Under the pieces are notes generated by a model, which saw only the letters and a list, made by a program, of their open reading frames with translations, ran no database searches and had not been told where the DNA came from. This document shows, one piece after another, positions 7,355 to 23,107 of a stretch of 31,210 nt of DNA (position 1 is its first letter; each line of letters opens with the position of its first letter). Both the position numbers and the translations under genes were made by a program. Origin of the DNA: a virus; the IMG/VR virus record IMGVR_UViG_3300047550_001289, positions 1 through 31,210 of that record; one strand, given 5' to 3'.

Positions 7355-8544
7355 GCGTTTTGCAGCCTTTCAGGTTCTGTATATTCAACTGTGATTTGTA
7401 GGTTGTTCGGGCCGTCTATGTAGTCCATTACCTCATAGCTTGTGTCGGTAATGTTGACAGGTATTGTGCCGAGAAATACCACAGGCGAAGCAATCAAATC
7501 TTGCAGCCATTCAAATTCGGTTTCGGTCAGCCAGTTCGTGTTGAGGACAACTTGCTTTGTTTTCTCGGTGGCATAGTTGGTCATGCCGTGTTTGGTTTTA
7601 TCGTATGCGAATGAAGTGCCTGTAAGCGTATAGTTATTCCGCTTAAATTGCTTTCTGCTGACCGTGTATTTGTCTTTGTTCATCATGCTGCACCGCACAC
7701 TTTCAAAGCCACCTAACGGGTTCAGAAAGTACAGATACTGCGGAGTGTATTTGCTGCACTCCTCAACCACATCAAAGCGGTAAAGTTCGGTCTGTGCGTT
7801 TGATGATGCGTTAATTACCTGCATTGTATAATAGCTTGTGTTGGCTGGGATGATATTTCCCGCTGTACCGCTGACCAATTCCCCTGATGCAACATCGTTA
7901 AGGTTGTCAGGCCCGGCAGGAACACGCAGTAAAAACTCCGATTTATCCCCTGCATCTGTAAAACTATTATTTATCACGCTGGTAGTTGTGCCACCTGCTG
8001 CATCGTAAGCAATAATTTTCACATCACTGCCATTGGCTACATTGCCACGTAAAAAGTAAAGGTAGTCAGTTTGACCGAGCGATACCCTGCGAGTGCGTAC
8101 ACGGGTCAGAAACTGTGCTGAACCTGTCAATGGCAGTTGGTATGTCGCTGTGGTTTCACTGCCATATAAATCAAATAACCCATTCCACACATATTTACCC
8201 GTATCGGTTGCAAGTGCAAGATATTCCGTGCCGCCACACTCCTCGCCAAACTCAACTGAATAAGCTAAATAAGAATTGGTGCATTTTGATATAGTTGCCA
8301 ATCCCTGTGTGAAGTCATATGTCACATAATTTTGCAGTATGCGGCTGATATTGAATACACCCTTGTCCGTAGTGCCGTGAAATATCGGGGCTTTCAGTTT
8401 GGCTATGGTGGTTCCGGCTGCATTTTTTACAACCGCAATGAATTTGAAGTTTGCCTGTGCGTAGTTTGTGGTCGTTACCACGTATGAAATATCTGAATAT
8501 ACCGGGCTGATGTCATTCGGCTCGGTGTTGATAGTGATTGCCAT
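7351..8544 (-). CDS. Tail / baseplate structural protein
   Basis: A 397-residue beta-rich protein upstream of the large tail-tip gene. The N-terminus (INTEPNDISPVYSDISYVV) and the segment LYFLNPLGGFESVRC resemble proteins repeatedly found paired with the 918-residue type in Bacteroidota phages, probably a distal tail or baseplate component. Eight Cys are scattered and form no metal motif. There are no membrane segments. ATG 8544 is preceded by the CTACTTTTT motif. The 3' end overlaps the next gene by ATGA, so the two are probably made together. A structural role is secure from context; the exact place in the tail is inferred. Confidence 0.6.
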   Translation of the reverse strand: MAITINTEPNDISPVYSDISYVVTTTNYAQANFKFIAVVKNAAGTTIAKLKAPIFHGTTDKGVFNISRILQNYVTYDFTQGLATISKCTNSYLAYSVEFGEECGGTEYLALATDTGKYVWNGLFDLYGSETTATYQLPLTGSAQFLTRVRTRRVSLGQTDYLYFLRGNVANGSDVKIIAYDAAGGTTTSVINNSFTDAGDKSEFLLRVPAGPDNLNDVASGELVSGTAGNIIPANTSYYTMQVINASSNAQTELYRFDVVEECSKYTPQYLYFLNPLGGFESVRCSMMNKDKYTVSRKQFKRNNYTLTGTSFAYDKTKHGMTNYATEKTKQVVLNTNWLTETEFEWLQDLIASPVVFLGTIPVNITDTSYEVMDYIDGPNNLQITVEYTEPERLQNA

Positions 8545-15973: not shown

Positions 15974-16214
15974 GTCGGATTGCGTGGACTTTTTTTAGCC
16001 ACTCTTTGAATTGTTTGTTGTCGCCATACCGGGCATGGTCACGTCTGCACAATGCCATCAAGTTGTCAATAGTATCAACGTGTTTGCTCCCACCCATACC
16101 CCGTGCTTCAATGTGATGAATGTCCACAGCAGCAGCACCACAGACCTCGCAAGGAATGAATGAGCTTGTATCATAGCCGAAATGCTGCATATAGATTTTC
16201 GTGTGCTTTTTCAC
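15945..16214 (-). CDS. HNH endonuclease
   Basis: An 89-residue HNH nuclease. The core is CEVCGAAAVDIHHIEARGMG (about 22-41, with a CxxC half-knuckle and catalytic-type His pair), then NLMALCRRDHARYGD (about 51-65). Small HNH proteins encoded near terminases often assist DNA packaging in HK97-like phages; a free-standing homing function is the alternative. The start is GTG 16214, the first gene of the late unit; GTG follows TTTGTAGC exactly as the early ATGs follow TTTGCACC. An internal Met (MQHFGYD) is a weaker choice. Confidence 0.75.
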   Translation of the reverse strand: MKKHTKIYMQHFGYDTSSFIPCEVCGAAAVDIHHIEARGMGGSKHVDTIDNLMALCRRDHARYGDNKQFKEWLKKVHAIRLGKPHQDTD

Positions 16215-16218
16215 GCTA

Positions 16219-16226
16219 CAAATTTT
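16219..16226 (-). promoter_or_regulatory. Possible divergent late promoter -7 box
   Basis: On the minus strand AAAATTTG (16226-16219) matches TAnnTTTG at 7 of 8 positions counting the free bases, and its last G is five bases before the GTG of the HNH gene. No TTG lies at the expected -33 position, so the promoter is weak or needs a factor. Confidence 0.35.
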
Positions 16227-16291
16227 ATTCGCAAATAATCTATTCTGTGAAATTGTGGATAACTTTTACAAAAATAATTTAACAAAAAGTA

Positions 16292-16321
16292 TTGCAAGTA
16301 TAGAAAAGTATATTACATTTG
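16292..16321 (+). promoter_or_regulatory. Bacteroidota-type promoter, leaderless, for the RMF-like gene
   Basis: TTG (16292-16294), 19 bases, then TACATTTG (16314-16321). The last G is five bases before ATG 16326, so transcription should begin at or within a base or two of the start codon. Confidence 0.7.
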
Positions 16322-16325
16322 CAGC

Positions 16326-16553
16326 ATGGAAAACACAAAAACGCCTTTCGAGCTGGGTTATGAAGCCTGTCAGCAATTCAACTACTGGGGAACAAACGAT
16401 GAAAACCCCTATTGGAACAACACAGATGAGTTTAAAGAATGGGAAAAGGGATGGTCTTGGTACATCACTCAGACGATTGAATGGGAACGTGACGAAGCAA
16501 TGGATATTTCAGATAGAGAATATCATGACCGCCAAGAATACTGCAACGATTAA
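16326..16553 (+). CDS. RMF-like small protein (ribosome modulation factor pattern)
   Basis: A 75-residue acidic, Trp-rich protein: PFELGYEACQQFNYWGTNDE, then NPYWNNTDEFKEWEKGW. The spacing of GYEA, NPY and W..GW follows the ribosome modulation factor family, whose bacterial members dimerise ribosomes and which has many uncharacterised phage relatives. It is the first early gene, with its own promoter, so it may act on the host translation machinery soon after entry; this is inference. It is more acidic than cellular RMF, which argues against simple rRNA binding. Confidence 0.45.
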   Translation: MENTKTPFELGYEACQQFNYWGTNDENPYWNNTDEFKEWEKGWSWYITQTIEWERDEAMDISDREYHDRQEYCND

Positions 16554-16561
16554 AAAATAAA

Positions 16562-16593
16562 TTTGGAAATCTGAAATCTTTGTTTTAATATTG
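16562..16593 (+). promoter_or_regulatory. Promoter for structured RNA / initiator operon
   Basis: TTTG (16562-16565), 20 bases, then TAATATTG (16586-16593), one mismatch from TAnnTTTG. By the geometry of the other promoters the transcript would begin near 16598. Unlike them it is 140 bases from the next credible start codon. Confidence 0.5.
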
Positions 16594-16597
16594 CATA

Positions 16598-16733
16598 TCG
16601 GAACAACAGGACTTCAACCCCCTGCCGAGAAAAGAAGATGAAAAAAGAACTTTACCAAACGCCCTACACAAGTACTATGCGGCTGCAATCTTCCAGCCGG
16701 GTTGAACATAGGAAAGTGTGGGGCGTTTTGTTT
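16598..16733 (+). ncRNA. Candidate structured RNA (small RNA or leader)
   Basis: The expected transcript starts with a short hairpin (TCGG 16598-16601 with CCGA 16625-16628; CAGG 16607-16610 with CCTG 16621-16624). An A-rich linker follows, then a compact fold. P1 pairs 16657-16669 with 16716-16728, 13 bp with one G-U. P2 pairs CTATG (16675-16679) with CATAG (16707-16711). P3 pairs CGGCTG (16680-16685) with CAGCCG (16694-16699). Between P1 and P2 lies an AAGTA/GAAA internal loop, and a 7-base bulge GGTTGAA separates P3 from P2. P1 is followed by TTTTGTTT, so the element may also end transcription. The ATG at 16638 inside it would give an unconvincing peptide. No known RNA class is recognised. 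Confidence 0.5.
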
Positions 16734-16943
16734 ATGATTAAATTACCAAAACGAATGCCGATTGACATCTGCGACAGATGCATCGAAGAACTTTCCCAGC
16801 AGATTGGAAAGTTGGAAGTTGACTTCCTGACAAAAAAAGTAAAAAAGCACGTTTACGATTACCGCAAAATGAACCTTGATTTTGAAGTGTTGTATTGGAA
16901 CCAATGCAAAAAATTAACCTTGAAAGGAAAGCCAAATGAATAA
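16734..16943 (+). CDS. Small protein, unknown
   Basis: A 69-residue protein (MIKLPKRMPIDICDRCIEEL) with one CDRC pair and a basic helical second half (LTKKVKKHVYDYRKMNLDF). I use ATG 16734 because the upstream extension to 16638 would run through the paired RNA element and reads like random sequence. It overlaps the initiator gene by eight bases. Its position directly before the initiator suggests a role in replication control, but I do not recognise it. Confidence 0.5.
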   Translation: MIKLPKRMPIDICDRCIEELSQQIGKLEVDFLTKKVKKHVYDYRKMNLDFEVLYWNQCKKLTLKGKPNE

Positions 16944-17736
16944 CGGCTGGATAAAGATACACCGTTGCATGATGGATAACCCATTGTACCATTCCGAACC
17001 ATTTAACAGAACCCATGCTTGGATTGACCTGTTATTGTTAGCCAATAGCAATGATAACTTTTTTTACAAGCGTGGCATCCGTGTCAACATTCAGCGTGGA
17101 CAAATTGGCCACGATGCTGATACTTTGGCCAAAAGATGGAAGTGGTCAAGAGGTAAGGTGGAAAGATACTTGACTATGCTTGAAAGTGATGGCATGATAG
17201 TAAGGCAAAAAAGCAACGTAACTACCTTAATATCAATATGTAAGTACGATGACTATCAGGCAAACGATAAAGCAAATAGTAAGGCAAATGATAAAACAAA
17301 CGGACAGCAAACAGTAAAGCAAACGGACACTAACAAGAATGATAAGAATTATAAGAATGAAAAGAATGAAGAGAATATATCTTTCCTGCGTTTTTGGAAT
17401 TTGTATGATAAGAAGATTGACAGGCAGGCATGTGAACGCAAATGGAACAAGATAGACAGTGAGCTGCATGAATTGATTTTTGCTCACGTTGCTGATTATG
17501 TTGCATCTACTCCGCAGGTGCAATACAGAAAAAACCCTGAAACATACCTAAACAATCGTAGCTGGGAAAATGAAATCGTAATGGAAGCAAAGCCAACAGA
17601 AAAAAAATACAAGGTAGAAACTGAATGGGCTTTCGGCCTTATCAAAGATGAATTTGAATCCCTTGAAGAAGCACAGGCCAAAGTTGAATGGTATAACAAC
17701 CGTAAAGACGCATCATTTAGAGCAAAAATAGTATGA
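16936..17736 (+). CDS. Replication initiator-like protein (phage O / DnaD type)
   Basis: A 266-residue protein. The N-terminal winged-helix (about 1-105) starts NNGWIKIHRCMMDNPLYHS and contains TLAKRWKWSRGKVERYLTML, a form typical of phage replication organizers that bind the origin. A low-complexity Asn/Lys linker (about 110-150) follows. A C-terminal module around SFLRFWNLYDKKIDRQACER and NPETYLNNRSWENE matches the region of such proteins that recruits the helicase. ATGA overlap with the primase-helicase gene fits that partnership. AAGGAAAGCCAA before ATG 16936 is a modest ribosome site. The linker DNA is itself repetitive and may be the origin. Confidence 0.7.
   Translation: MNNGWIKIHRCMMDNPLYHSEPFNRTHAWIDLLLLANSNDNFFYKRGIRVNIQRGQIGHDADTLAKRWKWSRGKVERYLTMLESDGMIVRQKSNVTTLISICKYDDYQANDKANSKANDKTNGQQTVKQTDTNKNDKNYKNEKNEENISFLRFWNLYDKKIDRQACERKWNKIDSELHELIFAHVADYVASTPQVQYRKNPETYLNNRSWENEIVMEAKPTEKKYKVETEWAFGLIKDEFESLEEAQAKVEWYNNRKDASFRAKIV
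17261..17379 (+). repeat. Iteron-like repeats and AT-rich 9-mers, candidate origin
   Basis: Inside the initiator gene, six CAAA-headed units of 11-12 bases (CAAACGATAAAG, CAAATAGTAAGG, CAAATGATAAAA, CAAACGGACAG, CAAACAGTAAAG, CAAACGGACACT) run from 17261 to 17331. Five 9-base units (AAGAATGAT, AAGAATTAT, AAGAATGAA twice, GAGAATATA) run from 17335 to 17379. Protein-binding repeats followed by easily melted AT-rich repeats within an initiator gene is the lambda-O origin layout. The repeats also encode the linker, so protein-level low complexity is the alternative. Confidence 0.5.
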
Positions 17737-19364
17737 GTTACGCATTTCACAATATCGAAATTCCACAGGGTAAAACCACAGGAGAGGTGCAAACACTTTG
17801 TCCGCAGTGTAGCCATACACGGAAAAAGAAAACAGACCGCTGCCTGTCGGTTAACCTTGATAAGAAAGCATGGATTTGTCATCATTGCGGTTGGAAGGGT
17901 GCAATAATTGACCGCCCGGAAGTAATCAAGTACGAAGTGCCGGAATGGAAAAACACCACCGCACTATCCGACAAGGTGCTAAAATGGTTTGAAAGTCGCA
18001 GAATAACGGCTGCCACCGTCAACAAGATGCAAATCACCGAACAGCTGGAATGGATGCCACAGGTCAGCAAAGAAGTAAACTGCATCTGTTTCAATTACTT
18101 TGAGGATGGTGTGCTTAAAAACGTGAAATACAGGGATGGTGCAAAGCATTTCAAGATGCACAAAGGCGCAGAGCTGATACCATACAACATTGACTGCCTT
18201 GCAAACGCTACTGAATTGTGGATAGTGGAAGGCGAAATGGATGCACTTGCACTTATCGAAGCAGGAATTGAAAATGTGATTAGTGTACCAAATGGCGCAC
18301 AGCCAAACCTAACTTTCTTTGACCGCTTCATGCCGGCATTTGACCACATCGAAAAGATACACATTGCAGTTGATAATGATGCACCCGGTATAGAATTACG
18401 CAATGCCATTGCAGACAGGTTTGGAAAAGACAAATGTAATTACATTGTATTCACTGATTGCAAGGATGCAAACGAGTATTTGCTGCTGAATGGTGCGTTT
18501 GCCCTGAGAGATGCCTGTTTGAATTTTACAGAATTCCCCATGATTGGTGTGTTCGGAGTTACCGATTACCTGACAGAGATTGAAAACCTTTACAACTATG
18601 GATTGCCGGAAGGTGCGAAAACAGGAATGCTTGGTTTTGATAAATTCTTGTCATTTCATAAAGGTTATTTGACTACGATTACAGGCATACCCGGACATGG
18701 TAAATCGGACTTTTTGGATCATGTGCTGCTGAAACTATTGCAAAGACATCAATGGAAAGGTGCGTTTTATTCACCTGAAAATAGACCAGTTGAATTGCAT
18801 ATCAGCAAGATGCTGCGTAAGTTGACCAAGCGGCCATTTATGGGGCAGCACCGCATGAACCAGCAGGAAATATACGAAGCACTTTACCTGCTTGAAAACA
18901 GCATATTTTTTGTCAAACCTGAAAAGGACTTCTCACTTGACAGCATACTTGCAAAAGTTGCCGAACTTAAAAACCGCAAGAATATAGACTGGTTTGTCAT
19001 TGATGCGTGGAATAAATTAGAACACCAATACGCTGAAAGTGAAACTAAATATATCGGGCAGTCGCTTGACAAGATTGTAAATTTCTGCGAAAGGTACAAC
19101 GTGCATTGTTTTTTGGTGGCACATCCACGCAAGATTTCAAAAAACGCTGATGGACTTTATGAAGTGCCGAGCCTTTATGATATAGCCGGGTCTGCTAACT
19201 TTTATAATAAGACAGATAATGGACTGACTGTGTACCGGAATTTCAAAAATAATTCAGTGGAAGTTTACATCCAAAAGGTAAAGTTCAGCCACTGGGGTGA
19301 AGTCGGAATGCAGAAATTTAACTATGATATTCCAACCGGGTTATATATTGAAACTAATGTTTAA
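17733..19364 (+). CDS. Bifunctional primase-helicase, T7 gp4 / Twinkle-like
   Basis: Makes primers and unwinds DNA at the fork. The protein has 543 residues. The N-terminal zinc ribbon has C23/C26 (LCPQC) and C49/C52 (ICHHCGW). The TOPRIM core has E166 and D170 (WIVEGEMDALAL) and the DND acids 214-216 (IAVDNDAPG). The DnaB/RecA-type helicase has Walker A GIPGHGKSD (318-326), a segment WKGAFYSPENRP (341-352), Walker B WFVIDAW (420-426) and VHCFLVAHPRK (about 452-462) as the H4-like motif. All key residues appear intact. It starts with an ATGA overlap at the initiator gene. Confidence 0.9.
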   Translation: MSYAFHNIEIPQGKTTGEVQTLCPQCSHTRKKKTDRCLSVNLDKKAWICHHCGWKGAIIDRPEVIKYEVPEWKNTTALSDKVLKWFESRRITAATVNKMQITEQLEWMPQVSKEVNCICFNYFEDGVLKNVKYRDGAKHFKMHKGAELIPYNIDCLANATELWIVEGEMDALALIEAGIENVISVPNGAQPNLTFFDRFMPAFDHIEKIHIAVDNDAPGIELRNAIADRFGKDKCNYIVFTDCKDANEYLLLNGAFALRDACLNFTEFPMIGVFGVTDYLTEIENLYNYGLPEGAKTGMLGFDKFLSFHKGYLTTITGIPGHGKSDFLDHVLLKLLQRHQWKGAFYSPENRPVELHISKMLRKLTKRPFMGQHRMNQQEIYEALYLLENSIFFVKPEKDFSLDSILAKVAELKNRKNIDWFVIDAWNKLEHQYAESETKYIGQSLDKIVNFCERYNVHCFLVAHPRKISKNADGLYEVPSLYDIAGSANFYNKTDNGLTVYRNFKNNSVEVYIQKVKFSHWGEVGMQKFNYDIPTGLYIETNV

Positions 19365-19377
19365 TTTACTATATTTG
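19348..19377 (+). promoter_or_regulatory. Leaderless promoter for the methyltransferase gene
   Basis: TTG (19348-19350), 19 bases, TATATTTG (19370-19377), then CACC and ATG at 19382. The 25 bases at 19360-19384 recur exactly at 20755-20779. Confidence 0.75.
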
Positions 19378-19381
19378 CACC

Positions 19382-20353
19382 ATGCGACACGGCAGTTTAT
19401 TTTCAGGAATCGGTGGGTTTGACCTTGCAGCCGAATGGATGGGGTGGGAGAATGTGTTCCATTGCGAATGGATGGAGTTTCCACGAAAGGTATTGGAATA
19501 CTACTGGCCTGATGCTGACAGCCACGTTGATATATGTAAAACTGATTTCAAAAAATATGCAAACAGAATTGATATTCTCACAGGGGGATTTCCCTGCCAA
19601 CCATTCTCCCTTGCAGGAAAGCGAAAGGGAACAGATGATGAACGCTACTTGTGGGGCGAAATGCTACGAGCAATACAAGAGATTAAACCCACATGGGTCA
19701 TTGCAGAAAATGTCTTTGGTATCGTCAATATTGATGGCGGACTGGTATTCGAGCAGGTGTGCCTTGACTTGGAAAATGAAGGGTACGAAGTTCAACCGTT
19801 TATTATTCCAGCTGCGGCCAAAAACGCACCACACCGCAGAGACAGAGTCTGGTTTGTTGCCCACACCAACAGCAGGGATTGTAAATGGATCAGAAATGAA
19901 AAAGAATATGATTCCAAGAGGGTTAGGTGCAATGGCAAAATTAAGCATGTTACCCACCCCGACAGTAATGGACAGCACCAATGCAACGGCAACAATGAAA
20001 TCAACCCAAGTGAAGGAAGGATCAATGCACTCGGTAACGCTGAACAGGGCAATGGCAATGGGAATGCTACCGACACCGAGAGTATTTGCATACAAGGACA
20101 GCGCAACGGACAGGGGCAAGGGCAATTTAGGGGAAGTGACTGGAGCAGGTTCCCAACTCAATCCCCGATTTGTAGCGGAGATGATGGGCTTCCCACCCAA
20201 CTGGACGGAATTACCTTTTCAAAGTGGAGAAACGAGTCAATCAAAGGATATGGAAATGCCATAGTGCCACAAATAGCATACGAACTTTTCAAAATAATAG
20301 AACATGAGAATAAAACTAAAAGCACCACAGCACAACAGCAGGACAACATTTAG
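19382..20353 (+). CDS. C5 cytosine DNA methyltransferase (orphan)
   Basis: Adds a methyl group to C5 of cytosine in DNA, probably to protect phage DNA or mark it for control. The protein has 323 residues with the family motifs in order: motif I FSGIGGFD (7-14), catalytic PCQPFS (71-76, Cys72), ENV (109-111), RRDRVW (151-156), a Gly/Asn-rich target recognition region (about 162-265) and motif X GYGNAIVPQIAYELF (about 289-303). No restriction partner is encoded nearby. The 3' end overlaps the DnaA-like gene by 50 bases. The recognition region is also open in the +1 frame, listed separately. The specificity cannot be read from sequence. Confidence 0.9.
   Translation: MRHGSLFSGIGGFDLAAEWMGWENVFHCEWMEFPRKVLEYYWPDADSHVDICKTDFKKYANRIDILTGGFPCQPFSLAGKRKGTDDERYLWGEMLRAIQEIKPTWVIAENVFGIVNIDGGLVFEQVCLDLENEGYEVQPFIIPAAAKNAPHRRDRVWFVAHTNSRDCKWIRNEKEYDSKRVRCNGKIKHVTHPDSNGQHQCNGNNEINPSEGRINALGNAEQGNGNGNATDTESICIQGQRNGQGQGQFRGSDWSRFPTQSPICSGDDGLPTQLDGITFSKWRNESIKGYGNAIVPQIAYELFKIIEHENKTKSTTAQQQDNI
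19413..20264 (+). CDS. Overlapping +1-frame ORF inside the methyltransferase gene
   Basis: A 283-codon frame, shifted +1 relative to the methyltransferase and open from GTG 19413 (first ATG 19452) to TAG at 20264. It does not read like a random shadow. It contains three LPTP units (LLPTPTAGI, MLPTPTVMD, MLPTPRVFA) and ends SQLNPRFVAEMMGFPPNWTE, sequences that, from memory, recur in proteins from other phages and Bacteroidota genomes. The canonical methyltransferase frame covers the same DNA with all its own motifs. It may be a true overprinted gene, an alternative C-terminus reached by frameshift, or a frame kept open by DNA-level conservation. No ribosome site is evident. Confidence 0.4.
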   Translation: MGLTLQPNGWGGRMCSIANGWSFHERYWNTTGLMLTATLIYVKLISKNMQTELIFSQGDFPANHSPLQESEREQMMNATCGAKCYEQYKRLNPHGSLQKMSLVSSILMADWYSSRCALTWKMKGTKFNRLLFQLRPKTHHTAETESGLLPTPTAGIVNGSEMKKNMIPRGLGAMAKLSMLPTPTVMDSTNATATMKSTQVKEGSMHSVTLNRAMAMGMLPTPRVFAYKDSATDRGKGNLGEVTGAGSQLNPRFVAEMMGFPPNWTELPFQSGETSQSKDMEMP

Positions 20354-20759
20354 GCGCAGCGAAATTGAAAGGCTCAATGAAGTCATTTATCACCAGTCAA
20401 TCCGCATTGCAGAACTTGAAAGGATGCTGAAAATGGACACAATGAACAAGGATGAATACTACATAAAAGCAGCACACATGGCAATTAAGTCTGTGTTCAC
20501 TCATTATCAGCCTGAATATATCACCATTGAAACCCGGAAGCGTGAAATTGTGGAAATGCGTCAGATATTTCAATGGCTATGCCGCAATAAAATGACACTT
20601 TCGTTGCACAAAATCGGTCAAATATGCGGTGGTCGTGACCATTCAACAATCATTCATTCGTGTAAGGTGGTTGACAACCTGATGATGTATGACCGCAGGT
20701 TTGCAAAAAACCTTGAAAGCGTGAGAAATAAGTTTGAGGAGTTTGCAGAACAGATTTAA
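20304..20759 (+). CDS. DnaA domain IV-like DNA-binding protein
   Basis: A 151-residue protein. The N-terminal part (about 15-50) is a charged helix (RSEIERLNEVIYHQSIRIAE). The C-terminal part carries the DnaA domain IV pattern: KREIVEMRQIFQWLCRNKMT (about 79-98), then LHKIGQICGGRDHSTIIHSC (about 101-120). The GGRDHSTIIH box is the DnaA signature that contacts DnaA boxes. The AAA+ domain of DnaA is missing, so it may bind origin DNA or compete with host DnaA without ATP-driven melting. It overlaps the methyltransferase gene by 50 bases. Confidence 0.75.
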   Translation: MRIKLKAPQHNSRTTFRRSEIERLNEVIYHQSIRIAELERMLKMDTMNKDEYYIKAAHMAIKSVFTHYQPEYITIETRKREIVEMRQIFQWLCRNKMTLSLHKIGQICGGRDHSTIIHSCKVVDNLMMYDRRFAKNLESVRNKFEEFAEQI

Positions 20760-20772
20760 TTTACTATATTTG
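20742..20772 (+). promoter_or_regulatory. Leaderless promoter for the SSB gene
   Basis: TTTG (20742-20745), 19 bases, TATATTTG (20765-20772), CACC, ATG at 20777. The -7 box, stop codon of the previous gene and start codon form the same 25-base block as at the methyltransferase gene. Confidence 0.75.
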
Positions 20773-20776
20773 CACC

Positions 20777-21049
20777 ATGTTAATACTCGATATATGTTTA
20801 AGTGACCTCCCCAGTGAGGCAATCACCACCGGAAAGAACGGAAAGAAGTACATCAAGCTCGTATGTGCTGAAAGAAAGACCGAAGGAAAGTTCGGAGAAA
20901 CCCATTACATTGCCCTGTCGCAAACCAAAGAAGAACGGGAAGCGAAGAAACCTGCAACCTATGTGGGGGGTGCTAAAAATGTAAGTTACAAAAATGTAAC
21001 ATCCGAGCCGAAGCCAAGTTACACCGCAACCGATGACTTACCTTTTTAG
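20777..21049 (+). CDS. Small single-stranded DNA-binding protein
   Basis: A 90-residue protein with an OB-fold-like N-terminal part (MLILDICLSDLPSEAITTGK, then KYIKLVCAERKTEGKFGETH) and a flexible tail ending in TATDDLPF. The last residues match the acidic SSB tip (DDIPF type) that docks replication and repair partners. It is shorter than bacterial SSB (about 170 residues), as in several phages. Its own promoter, and its place between the DnaA-like and nucleotide-related genes, fit a role at the fork and with the Rad52-like annealing protein. Confidence 0.7.
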   Translation: MLILDICLSDLPSEAITTGKNGKKYIKLVCAERKTEGKFGETHYIALSQTKEEREAKKPATYVGGAKNVSYKNVTSEPKPSYTATDDLPF

Positions 21050-21050
21050 T

Positions 21051-21299
21051 ATGAAAACAGAAATCATTGAAACCTGTGATGAAATTTGCGGAATGCTTAT
21101 TTTGAAAAATGAAAAGTATGGCAATTCAGCCCTTGAGCCAACACGGATATTCAGCAAGGCATCTACCACAGAGCAGTTGCTGGTTCGCATTGATGACAAG
21201 TTGAGCCGTATTAAAACAACCGGATTGGAAGCACCTGATGAAGACACTTTGAATGATCTTATTGGCTACCTAATTTTACTAAAAATCGCAACGAAATGA
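21051..21299 (+). CDS. DUF1599 / Nmad1-like protein
   Basis: An 82-residue protein from ATG 21051, one base after the SSB stop. The pattern KYGNSALEPTRIFSKAS (about 22-38), RIDDKLSRI (about 46-54) and DEDTLNDLIGYLILLKIA (about 63-80) matches DUF1599, also called nucleotide modification associated domain 1. This is a small helical family related in shape to MazG-like proteins and often found with modified-base systems. The biochemical role is unproven. Its stop overlaps the next start by ATGA. Confidence 0.6.
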   Translation: MKTEIIETCDEICGMLILKNEKYGNSALEPTRIFSKASTTEQLLVRIDDKLSRIKTTGLEAPDEDTLNDLIGYLILLKIATK

Positions 21300-21469
21300 C
21301 ACACGAAGAACAAATAAAAATGGAAAAATCAAGTTTATTGGCAGAAATGCTCATTGCTATTATTGATGAAAATAAACTTGTGCAGGAAAGTAATGAAGCA
21401 GAAGCATGGAAACTTGGCTATGCGGAAGCAGTAGAATTCATGATTGAAAAAATTGATAATTTAAGATGA
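21296..21469 (+). CDS. Small acidic protein, unknown
   Basis: A 57-residue ORF (MTHEEQIKMEKSSLLAEMLI) ending in EAVEFMIEKIDNLR. It is supported by ATGA overlaps at both ends and fills what would otherwise be a 170-base gap. It is predicted helical, and LGYAEAVEFM looks like a short packing helix. Its first 15 coding bases (ATGACACACGAAGAA) are identical to those of the next gene. Confidence 0.65.
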   Translation: MTHEEQIKMEKSSLLAEMLIAIIDENKLVQESNEAEAWKLGYAEAVEFMIEKIDNLR

Positions 21470-21660
21470 CACACGAAGAAAAAAGAAAACACTTTATTGC
21501 ACACGCCAGAAAGGGTATGAAAATGCAGGTAGTAGATGCCTGTAAAGGTGTGGCAAGTTATGCCACCGTGATAAAGGCATTGAACAGCAGCAGCAAGTAT
21601 AAAAGCAAAAAAGAGCAGCAGGTAATTGACACAGCATTTGACCTTTTAAATGTCAACTGA
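21466..21660 (+). CDS. Small basic helical protein, HTH-like
   Basis: A 64-residue basic protein (MTHEEKRKHFIAHARKGMKM). The segment QVVDACKGVASYATVIKALN (about 21-40) could form a helix-turn-helix, and a Ser/Lys stretch follows. Possibly a DNA-binding regulator of early genes; I do not recognise a family. Its start overlaps the previous gene by ATGA and its end overlaps the next by 11 bases. Confidence 0.55.
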   Translation: MTHEEKRKHFIAHARKGMKMQVVDACKGVASYATVIKALNSSSKYKSKKEQQVIDTAFDLLNVN

Positions 21661-21832
21661 AACACGAGGTTATAAAACGGTGGTGTACTGGAAAGGTGAG
21701 ATGCTATCATTTGAGCCGGTGCCTGATGAAGAAGTTGAAAAGACGCTGAAAAAATATCGGAAAAAAGGATTTAACGCAGAGCCGATTTCGGATGACCTGA
21801 TAAAAAAAATCGCACAAAGTTTGAAAATATAA
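21650..21832 (+). CDS. Small protein, unknown
   Basis: A 60-residue protein (MSTETRGYKTVVYWKGEMLS) with a beta-like start and a Lys-rich helical end (LIKKIAQSLKI). No motif is recognised. It ends just before the next promoter, whose TTTG box lies inside its last codons. Confidence 0.5.
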   Translation: MSTETRGYKTVVYWKGEMLSFEPVPDEEVEKTLKKYRKKGFNAEPISDDLIKKIAQSLKI

Positions 21833-21850
21833 AAATTTATACTATATTTG
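21820..21850 (+). promoter_or_regulatory. Leaderless promoter for the recombination genes
   Basis: TTTG (21820-21823), 19 bases, TATATTTG (21843-21850), then CATC and ATG at 21855. It has the same box-to-start distance as three other early promoters. Confidence 0.75.
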
Positions 21851-21854
21851 CATC

Positions 21855-22076
21855 ATGGAAACCAAAATAAAAGTCACACACACAGGCAGCTATTCTGCCA
21901 AATTCGAACACGATGATGTCATCTACAACATTGATTGGGAAGATGACAGCGACACAGTGTATTTCATTCAGGAGTTTGCACCCGGTCAAGACGGACGCAA
22001 ATGCGTGAGCATCCCTGCTGAAATTCTGCCGACTATTGTAGGTATTTTTAACACAATCAAGGAGGCAAAACAATGA
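21855..22076 (+). CDS. Small acidic protein, unknown
   Basis: A 73-residue protein with a beta-rich first part (METKIKVTHTGSYSAKFEHD, DVIYNIDWEDDSDTVYF) and a helical end (ILPTIVGIFNTIKEAKQ). It is the first gene after its own promoter and leads the Rad52 cluster, so it may assist recombination; no family is recognised. The codons for KEAK contain a strong Shine-Dalgarno sequence (AAGGAGG, 22059-22065) for the next gene. Confidence 0.55.
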   Translation: METKIKVTHTGSYSAKFEHDDVIYNIDWEDDSDTVYFIQEFAPGQDGRKCVSIPAEILPTIVGIFNTIKEAKQ

Positions 22077-22534
22077 ATGACATTTTAACCGCACCCATTC
22101 AGTCCAATGAGATTGAATGGAGAGTGCAACAACAGACAAGCACAGGCAAGTTGATCATCGTGCCGTACATTAACAATCGTTGTGTGATGCAACGCTTTGA
22201 TGCAGCATTCGGGCCGACAAACTGGACTTCCGAATTTCGGGAGATAACCAACGGCTTCATCTGCCGCCTGACTGTGACCGTAGACAAAAAGACTGTGTAC
22301 CGTGAAGATGGTGCATCCAAGACAAATATCGAACCTGAAAAGGGTGGTATATCGGACGCAATGAAAAGGGCTGCTGTGCAGTTTGGTCTTGGTCGGTGCC
22401 TGTACGATTACCCAAAAGTAATGATTGAATGTCAGGACAAGTATATTCCAGATTGGGCATACGATAAACTGGGCAAACTGGTTGAATGGATAAACGCTGG
22501 GAACTGGAAGGAAATAATAATTTTGAAGCAATGA
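22073..22534 (+). CDS. Rad52/Sak-like single-strand annealing protein
   Basis: A 153-residue recombinase that anneals complementary single strands. Diagnostic segments are LIIVPYINNRCVMQRFDAAF (about 26-45), GPTNWTSEF (46-54), REDGASKTNIEPEKGGISDA (about 82-101) and KRAAVQFGLGRCLYDYP (about 104-120). These match the Rad52 core that binds ssDNA in a ring. It overlaps the upstream gene by ATGA and has AAGGAGG seven bases before ATG, the best Shine-Dalgarno sequence in the window, suggesting high output. It probably works with the small SSB in recombination-dependent replication. Confidence 0.8.
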   Translation: MNDILTAPIQSNEIEWRVQQQTSTGKLIIVPYINNRCVMQRFDAAFGPTNWTSEFREITNGFICRLTVTVDKKTVYREDGASKTNIEPEKGGISDAMKRAAVQFGLGRCLYDYPKVMIECQDKYIPDWAYDKLGKLVEWINAGNWKEIIILKQ

Positions 22535-22935
22535 CAGATATCGTGAATTTATTATTTGATGTTGAGGAAGGCAACGCATCCGCTTTGGATGCGTTCTGCC
22601 AACTCACCCGGTTAGAAAAGCAAATCAAAGCGGCAAAAGAACAGATACAATCCCAAGCCATAAACGAAGCGCAGATGTACGGCAAGACTTTCAATCACAT
22701 GGGTTTTGAAATTCAATGCCGTTCAGGTGCAGGTCGGTGGAAGTTTGATCACCTTGATGAATGGGTTGTTGAAAAGAACAAAATGGCTGCCATTGAACAC
22801 GCTGCAAAGTGGGCATATCAGTCGATTGAAAAGGGCATGACACCCATAACCGATGACGGGGATATTATTCAACCTGCTGTGTATGTGGCAGGAAGTGACA
22901 CCATAGCATTAAAGGAGATTAACCATGCTGATTAG
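22531..22935 (+). CDS. Coiled-coil protein of the recombination cluster
   Basis: A 134-residue protein from ATG 22531 (MTDIVNLLFDVEEGNASALD), chosen for its ATGA overlap with the Rad52-like gene. A coiled coil (LTRLEKQIKAAKEQIQSQAI, about 25-44) leads into a mixed region (FEIQCRSGAGRWKFDHL, about 58-74) and a helix with EWVVEKNKMAAIEHAAKWA. Proteins of this form often sit next to Rad52-like genes in Bacteroidota phages. A helper role in recombination is inferred from position only. Confidence 0.55.
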   Translation: MTDIVNLLFDVEEGNASALDAFCQLTRLEKQIKAAKEQIQSQAINEAQMYGKTFNHMGFEIQCRSGAGRWKFDHLDEWVVEKNKMAAIEHAAKWAYQSIEKGMTPITDDGDIIQPAVYVAGSDTIALKEINHAD

Positions 22936-23107
22936 ACGTGAAATTCCGAAGTCAATAGAAAGATGGCTGCCGCCTTGCGAGGAAGAAGTCATTGAAGCAC
23001 AGCCATACGATTACAGCCAAATGCCTGATGACTTGCCAAGCGTGGATGATTGGTTCAAAATCAGGGTGTGGGTTGATGAAATTGAAGGAAAATCCCTAAC
23101 AGGTTAA
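22925..23107 (+). CDS. Small protein, unknown
   Basis: A 60-residue protein (MLIRREIPKSIERWLPPCEE) rich in Trp, Pro and acidic residues. A clear Shine-Dalgarno sequence (AAGGAG, 22912-22917) sits seven bases before ATG 22925. It overlaps the upstream gene by 11 bases. No family is recognised. Confidence 0.5.
   Translation: MLIRREIPKSIERWLPPCEEEVIEAQPYDYSQMPDDLPSVDDWFKIRVWVDEIEGKSLTG

Follow-up and report, generated by a model that had tools for sequence, protein, structure and literature searches.

A phage transcript that lacks a leader is known from lambda, where the repressor gene cI is read from a sigma-70 promoter into an mRNA starting at the AUG. Here we examine the 31,210-base virus record IMGVR_UViG_3300047550_001289 (the window), from a phage of probable Bacteroidota host, in which, unlike lambda cI, several internal promoters are concerned and their boxes are of the Bacteroidota type. 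Four sites in it, before the genes at 16326, 19382, 20777 and 21855, are very probably housekeeping-type Bacteroidota promoters that would start transcription at the A of the ATG and so give leaderless mRNAs.

The closest described counterparts are the promoters of the primary sigma factor of Bacteroidota (sigma-ABfr), which combine a −33 TTTG element, an AT-rich spacer, a −7 TAnnTTTG box and a distance of 4 (or 5) nucleotides (nt) to the transcription start, +1 (PMC6847099, PMC7366714, PMC9723704), features that the four phage sites share, the distance to +1 by prediction. The portions of these reports drawn on here place the box from T-12 to G-5 in Flavobacterium johnsoniae, 4 or 5 nt from the mapped +1 (PMC6847099), and at −12 to −5 in F. 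psychrophilum (PMC9723704). The leaders that they describe are mostly longer, averaging 33 nt in F. johnsoniae, where 87% exceed 10 nt (PMC6847099), and with medians of 24–32 nt in the other two cases, whereas at the phage sites the ATG is the predicted +1. Absent leaders, or leaders below 10 nt, are reported from the same phylum as a minority class, in 5.5% of the mRNAs of 890 coding sequences in F. psychrophilum (PMC9723704) and about 3.7% of 5' untranslated regions in Bacteroides thetaiotaomicron. The phage differs from both in that four of its six boxes near starts of open reading frames (ORFs) have this layout, which is also the spacing that predominates among its relatives. In Actinobacteria and Deinococcus-Thermus, leaderless genes likewise have a −10 element at a fixed distance from the start codon, though theirs is Pribnow-like (PMC3160421).

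Bacteroidota have no Shine–Dalgarno leaders, and work continues on how they select start codons. Surveys have called leaderless mRNA rare in the phylum; one of them, from 2011, found leaderless genes in one Bacteroidetes/Chlorobi genome out of 37 and conceded that its box model, confined to Pribnow-like boxes, may underestimate their number (PMC3160421). We found no report of leaderless transcripts in Bacteroidota phages by title or abstract opening, in a literature search outside which most subscription journals and all preprints fell.

Promoter boxes four nucleotides from ATG in the window

The four sites share the layout TTG/TTTG-N19-TAHHTTTG-N4-ATG (Nx denotes x intervening nucleotides), TAHHTTTG being the F. 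johnsoniae form of the −7 TAnnTTTG element. An earlier sequence-only reading of this DNA had claimed such a box four bases before each of the four ATGs, with a TTG or TTTG 19 bases further upstream, and both parts of the claim prove exact when the sequence is read directly. The −7 element is thus present at all four sites, as is the TTG of the −33 element at the 19-nt spacing, and the full TTTG occurs at two (20742 and 21820). The published +1 lies four (or five) nucleotides after the box; at the distance of four it would fall on the A of the ATG at every site.

All four promoters lie on the plus strand. In the first, a −33-like TTG (16292..16294) stands 19 nt before the −7 box TACATTTG (16314..16321); the box numbering of the two Flavobacterium reports (PMC6847099, PMC9723704) predicts a +1 at A16326, the first base of a predicted leaderless 75-aa ORF (16326..16553) whose family is weakly RMF-like. 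The spacer between box and ATG is CAGC here, CACC at the second and third sites and CATC at the fourth. Promoter 2 has its TTG (19348..19350) within the primase/helicase gene, at the 3' end, its box TATATTTG at 19370..19377 and a predicted +1 at A19382, from which a C5-cytosine DNA methylase gene (19382..20353) would be read without a leader. Promoter 3 is similarly embedded, with a TTTG (20742..20745) in the 3' end of a DnaA-C-like gene, the box TATATTTG at 20765..20772 and a predicted +1 at A20777, opening a predicted leaderless 90-aa ORF without assigned function (20777..21049). A stretch of 25 nt (19360..19384) that takes in the stop codon of the preceding gene together with the −7 box and the ATG is identical to 20755-20779. 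Promoter 4 has a TTTG at 21820..21823, the box TATATTTG at 21843..21850 and a predicted +1 at A21855; the 73-aa ORF that follows (21855..22076), also predicted to be leaderless and without assigned function, is succeeded by an Erf/Rad52-like gene at 22073.

That an identical geometry at four sites is unlikely to arise by chance, as had been argued, was borne out in each of three patterns tested, for none of which did any of 100 shuffled windows reach the observed count. The pattern TANNTTTG-N4-ATG occurs five times on the two strands of the window against an expectation of 0.77 (standard deviation 0.94), and no dinucleotide shuffle contained five. Its fifth match (8327-8341, plus strand) runs antisense within an ORF of the minus strand, lacks a TTG at the 19-nt distance and was counted as chance. 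TTG-N19-TAHHTTTG also occurs five times (0.69 expected; five reached in 0/100 shuffles), and four of the five are the present sites. Upstream of the window's 46 ORFs of at least 60 aa, six TAHHTTTG boxes lie within 80 nt of the start, four at N4 and the others at N72 and N78. ORFs here and below were called mechanically from an ATG and a minimum length (in several scans from the most upstream ATG) and are not annotated genes.

The same spacing in related phages

A scan of related phage genomes for TAnnTTTG, four nucleotides and ATG, as the sequence-only reading had proposed, gave N4 as the dominant spacing. We retrieved 60 IMG/VR loci with a primase query, added more with an alignment query, and used the 73 loci whose primase identity reached 83%. 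Of the 251 boxes that stand no more than 80 nt from an ORF start there, 87 lie at N4 and none at N0–N3; the next most frequent single spacing (N68) has 26. With ORFs left unfiltered the N4 count was 112 on the forward and 1 on the reverse strand. ORFs with a box within 30 nt numbered 207 in 28 families, the window included, and in 14 of these families one or more members stand at N4. In the slot behind the post-primase promoter we found the methylase, the DnaA-C gene or, in their place, two further genes, at N4 each time (13, 10 and 3 rows), which implies that one promoter has had different genes swapped in behind it, joined at the start codon.

Not every promoter in these phages has this layout, and some genes begin 7, 8, 15 or 20–22 nt behind the box. 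A gene family beginning MKHDLE (L136, L138, L149, L171, L174 and others) has a strong promoter 20–22 nt upstream and an A-rich leader in 19 rows, and is a natural leadered control within the same phages. Controls farther afield gave no N4 peak: in 75 non-Bacteroidota loci with the same primase family (1.03 Mb) there were two forward and two reverse matches, a comparison weakened by their higher GC content (0.55), and eight distant viral loci (36–41% primase identity) had no N4 site.

Virus-wide spacing

For a wider view we scanned IMG/VR for a strict promoter, TTTG-N19-TATATTTGCA, followed by ATG at N3, N4, N5, N9 or N19, each scanned singly, counting distinct sequences and taking an ATG to open an ORF if that ORF had at least 45 aa, or at least 20 aa where the contig end cuts it. 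The scans returned 69 stretches at N3, at least 119 at N4, 101 at N5, 63 at N9 and 87 at N19. The ATG opens an ORF in 6/52 distinct cases at N3, in 90/106 at N4 among the matches listed, in 52/75 at N5, in 3/50 at N9 and in 37/69 at N19, against a baseline of 25% for all ATGs in the N4 loci. Such a jump from N3 to N4 is expected of a transcription start at N4, which would leave closer start codons outside the mRNA. The low value at N9 and the recovery at N19 point to two modes, one leaderless and one leadered, and to a bias against short leaders. ORFs opened at N4 (at least 107, duplicates included) make up at least 51 families. An earlier broad scan of viral contigs with CTATATTTGCA-N0..25-ATG yielded no clear peak and mostly chance matches inside genes among the matches listed (at least 120 stretches); with N counted after the CA, at least 9 fell at 2, which equals the N4 geometry, and at least 14 each at 16 and 25.

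Bacterial chromosomes

The layout extends to bacteria of the expected host group. Across 149 genomes from the same class as G001, a metagenome-assembled genome titled uncultured Bacteroidetes bacterium, TATATTTG-N4-ATG occurs 1216 times against 615 for TATATTTG-N12-ATG, and the N4 count is the higher in 113 genomes, the lower in 24 and equal in 12. In one of the chromosomes, G060, sampled over 1.2 Mb in 60 stretches (L286-L305, L346-L385), 204 boxes were counted no more than 80 nt from an ORF start: 4 at N0–N3 together, then 21 at N4, 10 at N5, 15 at N6, 9 at N7 and 5 at N8, 12 in all at N9–N15, and 6, 8, 7, 10 and 6 at N16–N20. The opposite strand, taken as a control, has 43 boxes, one of them at N4. 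Such a two-peaked distribution with few boxes at N9–N15 suggests that leaders of about 5–11 nt are avoided. Read by eye, the N-termini of the G060 N4 genes resemble those of DnaE, a DNA polymerase III delta-prime-like protein, PyrR, TadA and NadD. Four other genomes have 2/122 boxes at N4, so use of the mode differs between lineages. The phage would seem to draw on a capacity that bacteria of this group possess and need not create it.

These spacings also bear on where exactly transcription starts. Real promoters with a variable +1 could give near-leaderless mRNAs with very short leaders of 1–4 nt, which would accommodate the N5–N8 spacings of some relatives and some G060 genes as well as the 4- and 5-nt spacings of F. 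johnsoniae. We consider this unlikely, since boxes are nearly absent at N0–N3 and most frequent at N4, which puts +1 mostly at the A, and since the ATG is preceded by a pyrimidine. The usual context of a transcription start is a pyrimidine–purine step, and a pyrimidine stands directly before the ATG at 41/45 distinct N4 phage sites and 19/21 in G060, while genes without a box have one in 49% and 60% of cases.

True start codons and promoter identity

Nor do the real starts appear to lie downstream of these ATGs, a case that the sequence-only reading had named as counting against it. In six families the variable columns over codons 2–24 fall at codon positions 1/2/3 as 3/2/14 (the 20777 family), 1/0/7, 6/4/11, 2/4/17, 2/0/11 and 0/1/7, and the methylase N-terminus is identical across the 12 rows compared. 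Substitutions thus concentrate at third codon positions from the ATG onwards, which makes the ATGs true starts, with no later start needed.

The fixed distance to the ATG would also be expected if TATATTTGCANN were a translation signal, a Shine–Dalgarno substitute or Kozak-like context 4 nt from the ATG of an mRNA that starts far upstream, and an A at −3, present in 89% of the distinct phage sites at N4, fits such a signal. In the N4 class of G060, however, an A at −3 is found in just 24%. The TTG exactly 19 nt before the box, present in 36/51 distinct N4 upstreams, is retained in 17/48 distinct upstreams whose ATG lies off N4; a spacing kept wherever the ATG falls points to a promoter and not a ribosome site. 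The same box also stands 20–22 nt from the MKHDLE genes, and virus-wide the starts fall at N4, N5 and again N19, and not at N3 or N9, as a promoter predicts. A translation signal is accordingly a very unlikely explanation.

Probable leaderless initiation, its cause and its reach

Comparative sequence evidence and the start-site geometry published for two Flavobacterium species together give good support to the claim that these mRNAs begin at or next to the ATG. In the mechanism that we propose, the −33 TTTG or TTG, the 19-nt spacer and the −7 TAnnTTTG box would position RNA polymerase to start at the A of the ATG; the transcripts would have no leader, and ribosomes would recognise the 5'-terminal AUG directly. 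They would probably do so by an IF2-favoured route of the kind described for leaderless mRNA (PMC10783764). The phage would probably have made a minor initiation mode of its host the main one for the internal promoters of its replication region, each promoter being fitted tightly between the stop codon of one gene and the ATG of the following one.

Several points weigh against this interpretation. The start-site rule is that of Flavobacterium and may not be that of the phage's host, and the 5-nt spacing known in F. johnsoniae would place +1 at the U of the AUG at N4 sites. The geometry is not invariant, as relatives of the 16326 gene have N7 in 11/37 rows and N5 in 2, and it is not universal, since N4 is not enriched in three named Flavobacterium phages (0/4, 1/11 and 0/4 boxes). 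The four genes also stand in a co-directional array open to read-through from upstream promoters; the prevalent A at −3 could suit leadered translation, and read-through transcripts may also use these ATGs.

As to cause, the N4 spacing may be a by-product of tight gene packing, with no selection for leaderlessness. Stop codons of the upstream genes do lie within promoters 2 and 3 (19362-19364 and 20757-20759), and the dense arrangement of promoters between genes is cause enough for the phage's preference. Packing alone, on the other hand, does not set one exact value, the same phages have leadered promoters (N20–N22 in the 19 rows of one family), and the same value recurs in a bacterial chromosome. 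We regard the by-product explanation, which is compatible with the leaderless mechanism, as somewhat doubtful.

More tentatively still, Bacteroidota viruses and some of their hosts might possess a separate, quantised class of genes whose mRNAs start exactly at the AUG, the default for internal promoters in many phages, that changes in initiation (the IF2/IF3 ratio, 70S initiation or bS21-deficient ribosomes) could switch or exploit en bloc. A promoter-to-ATG rule with so sharp an edge lets phage, host and metagenome sequences be tested for leaderless genes, aids the correction of start codons and supplies test genes. If phages depend on the leaderless mode, it would offer a handle on phage–host control of translation in an abundant phylum.

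Replication region and the RMF-like first gene

The four promoters serve a replication and recombination region that runs on the plus strand from 16.3 kb and encodes a DnaD-like loader, a primase/helicase, the C5-methylase, a DnaA C-terminal domain protein and an Erf/Rad52-like protein. On the minus strand are the structural genes that PHROGs identified (tape measure, terminase, portal and virion protein). We infer from gene content alone that the plus-strand genes are early.

The sequence-only reading had called the first gene RMF-like and suggested that the early leaderless mRNAs perhaps exploit ribosomes altered early in infection. The label proves weak: the window protein of the 16326 gene had no Pfam match at E ≤ 10 and none in PHROGs, Pfam and NCBIfam searches, and a relative (L154) matches PF04957 (RMF) at E 0.027 with 15 bits, below the gathering score of 27.9 bits. 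This sub-threshold match in one relative is what speaks for altered ribosomes; with no family match for the window protein, we rejected the RMF link as support. The same geometry on ordinary chromosomal genes of at least one bacterium and in many viral families likewise leaves the proposal unsupported, and we hold it to be highly improbable.

In the divergent intergenic region, TTATCCACA (16254-16262, minus strand) resembles a DnaA box. The DnaA C-terminal domain protein is encoded at 20304-20759 on the plus strand (Pfam Bac_DnaA_C, E 1.1e-17), and perhaps gives the phage its own origin recognition.

A structured RNA downstream of the first gene

Between the 16326 gene and the genes at 16734/16638 lies a conserved structured RNA (about 16598-16733), just after a promoter-like TAATATTG at 16586-16593. 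It consists of a short 5' hairpin and a long terminator-like hairpin with a loop-E-like internal loop (AGUA/GAA) and a U-rich tail. An Rfam search of 16000-23000 (E ≤ 1) returned no family at 16598-16733, its sole entry being a sub-threshold snoRNA match elsewhere. Among the 27 predicted pairs, 15 show compensatory changes; across 22 sequences 99.8% of cells are paired, and none of 500 shuffles did as well. An ORF (16638-16943) crosses the structured RNA and is open to the end of the aligned stretch in 22/22 sequences, although the frame in which the hairpin is read differs among relatives. Translation of this ORF through the terminator-like hairpin could bring about attenuation.

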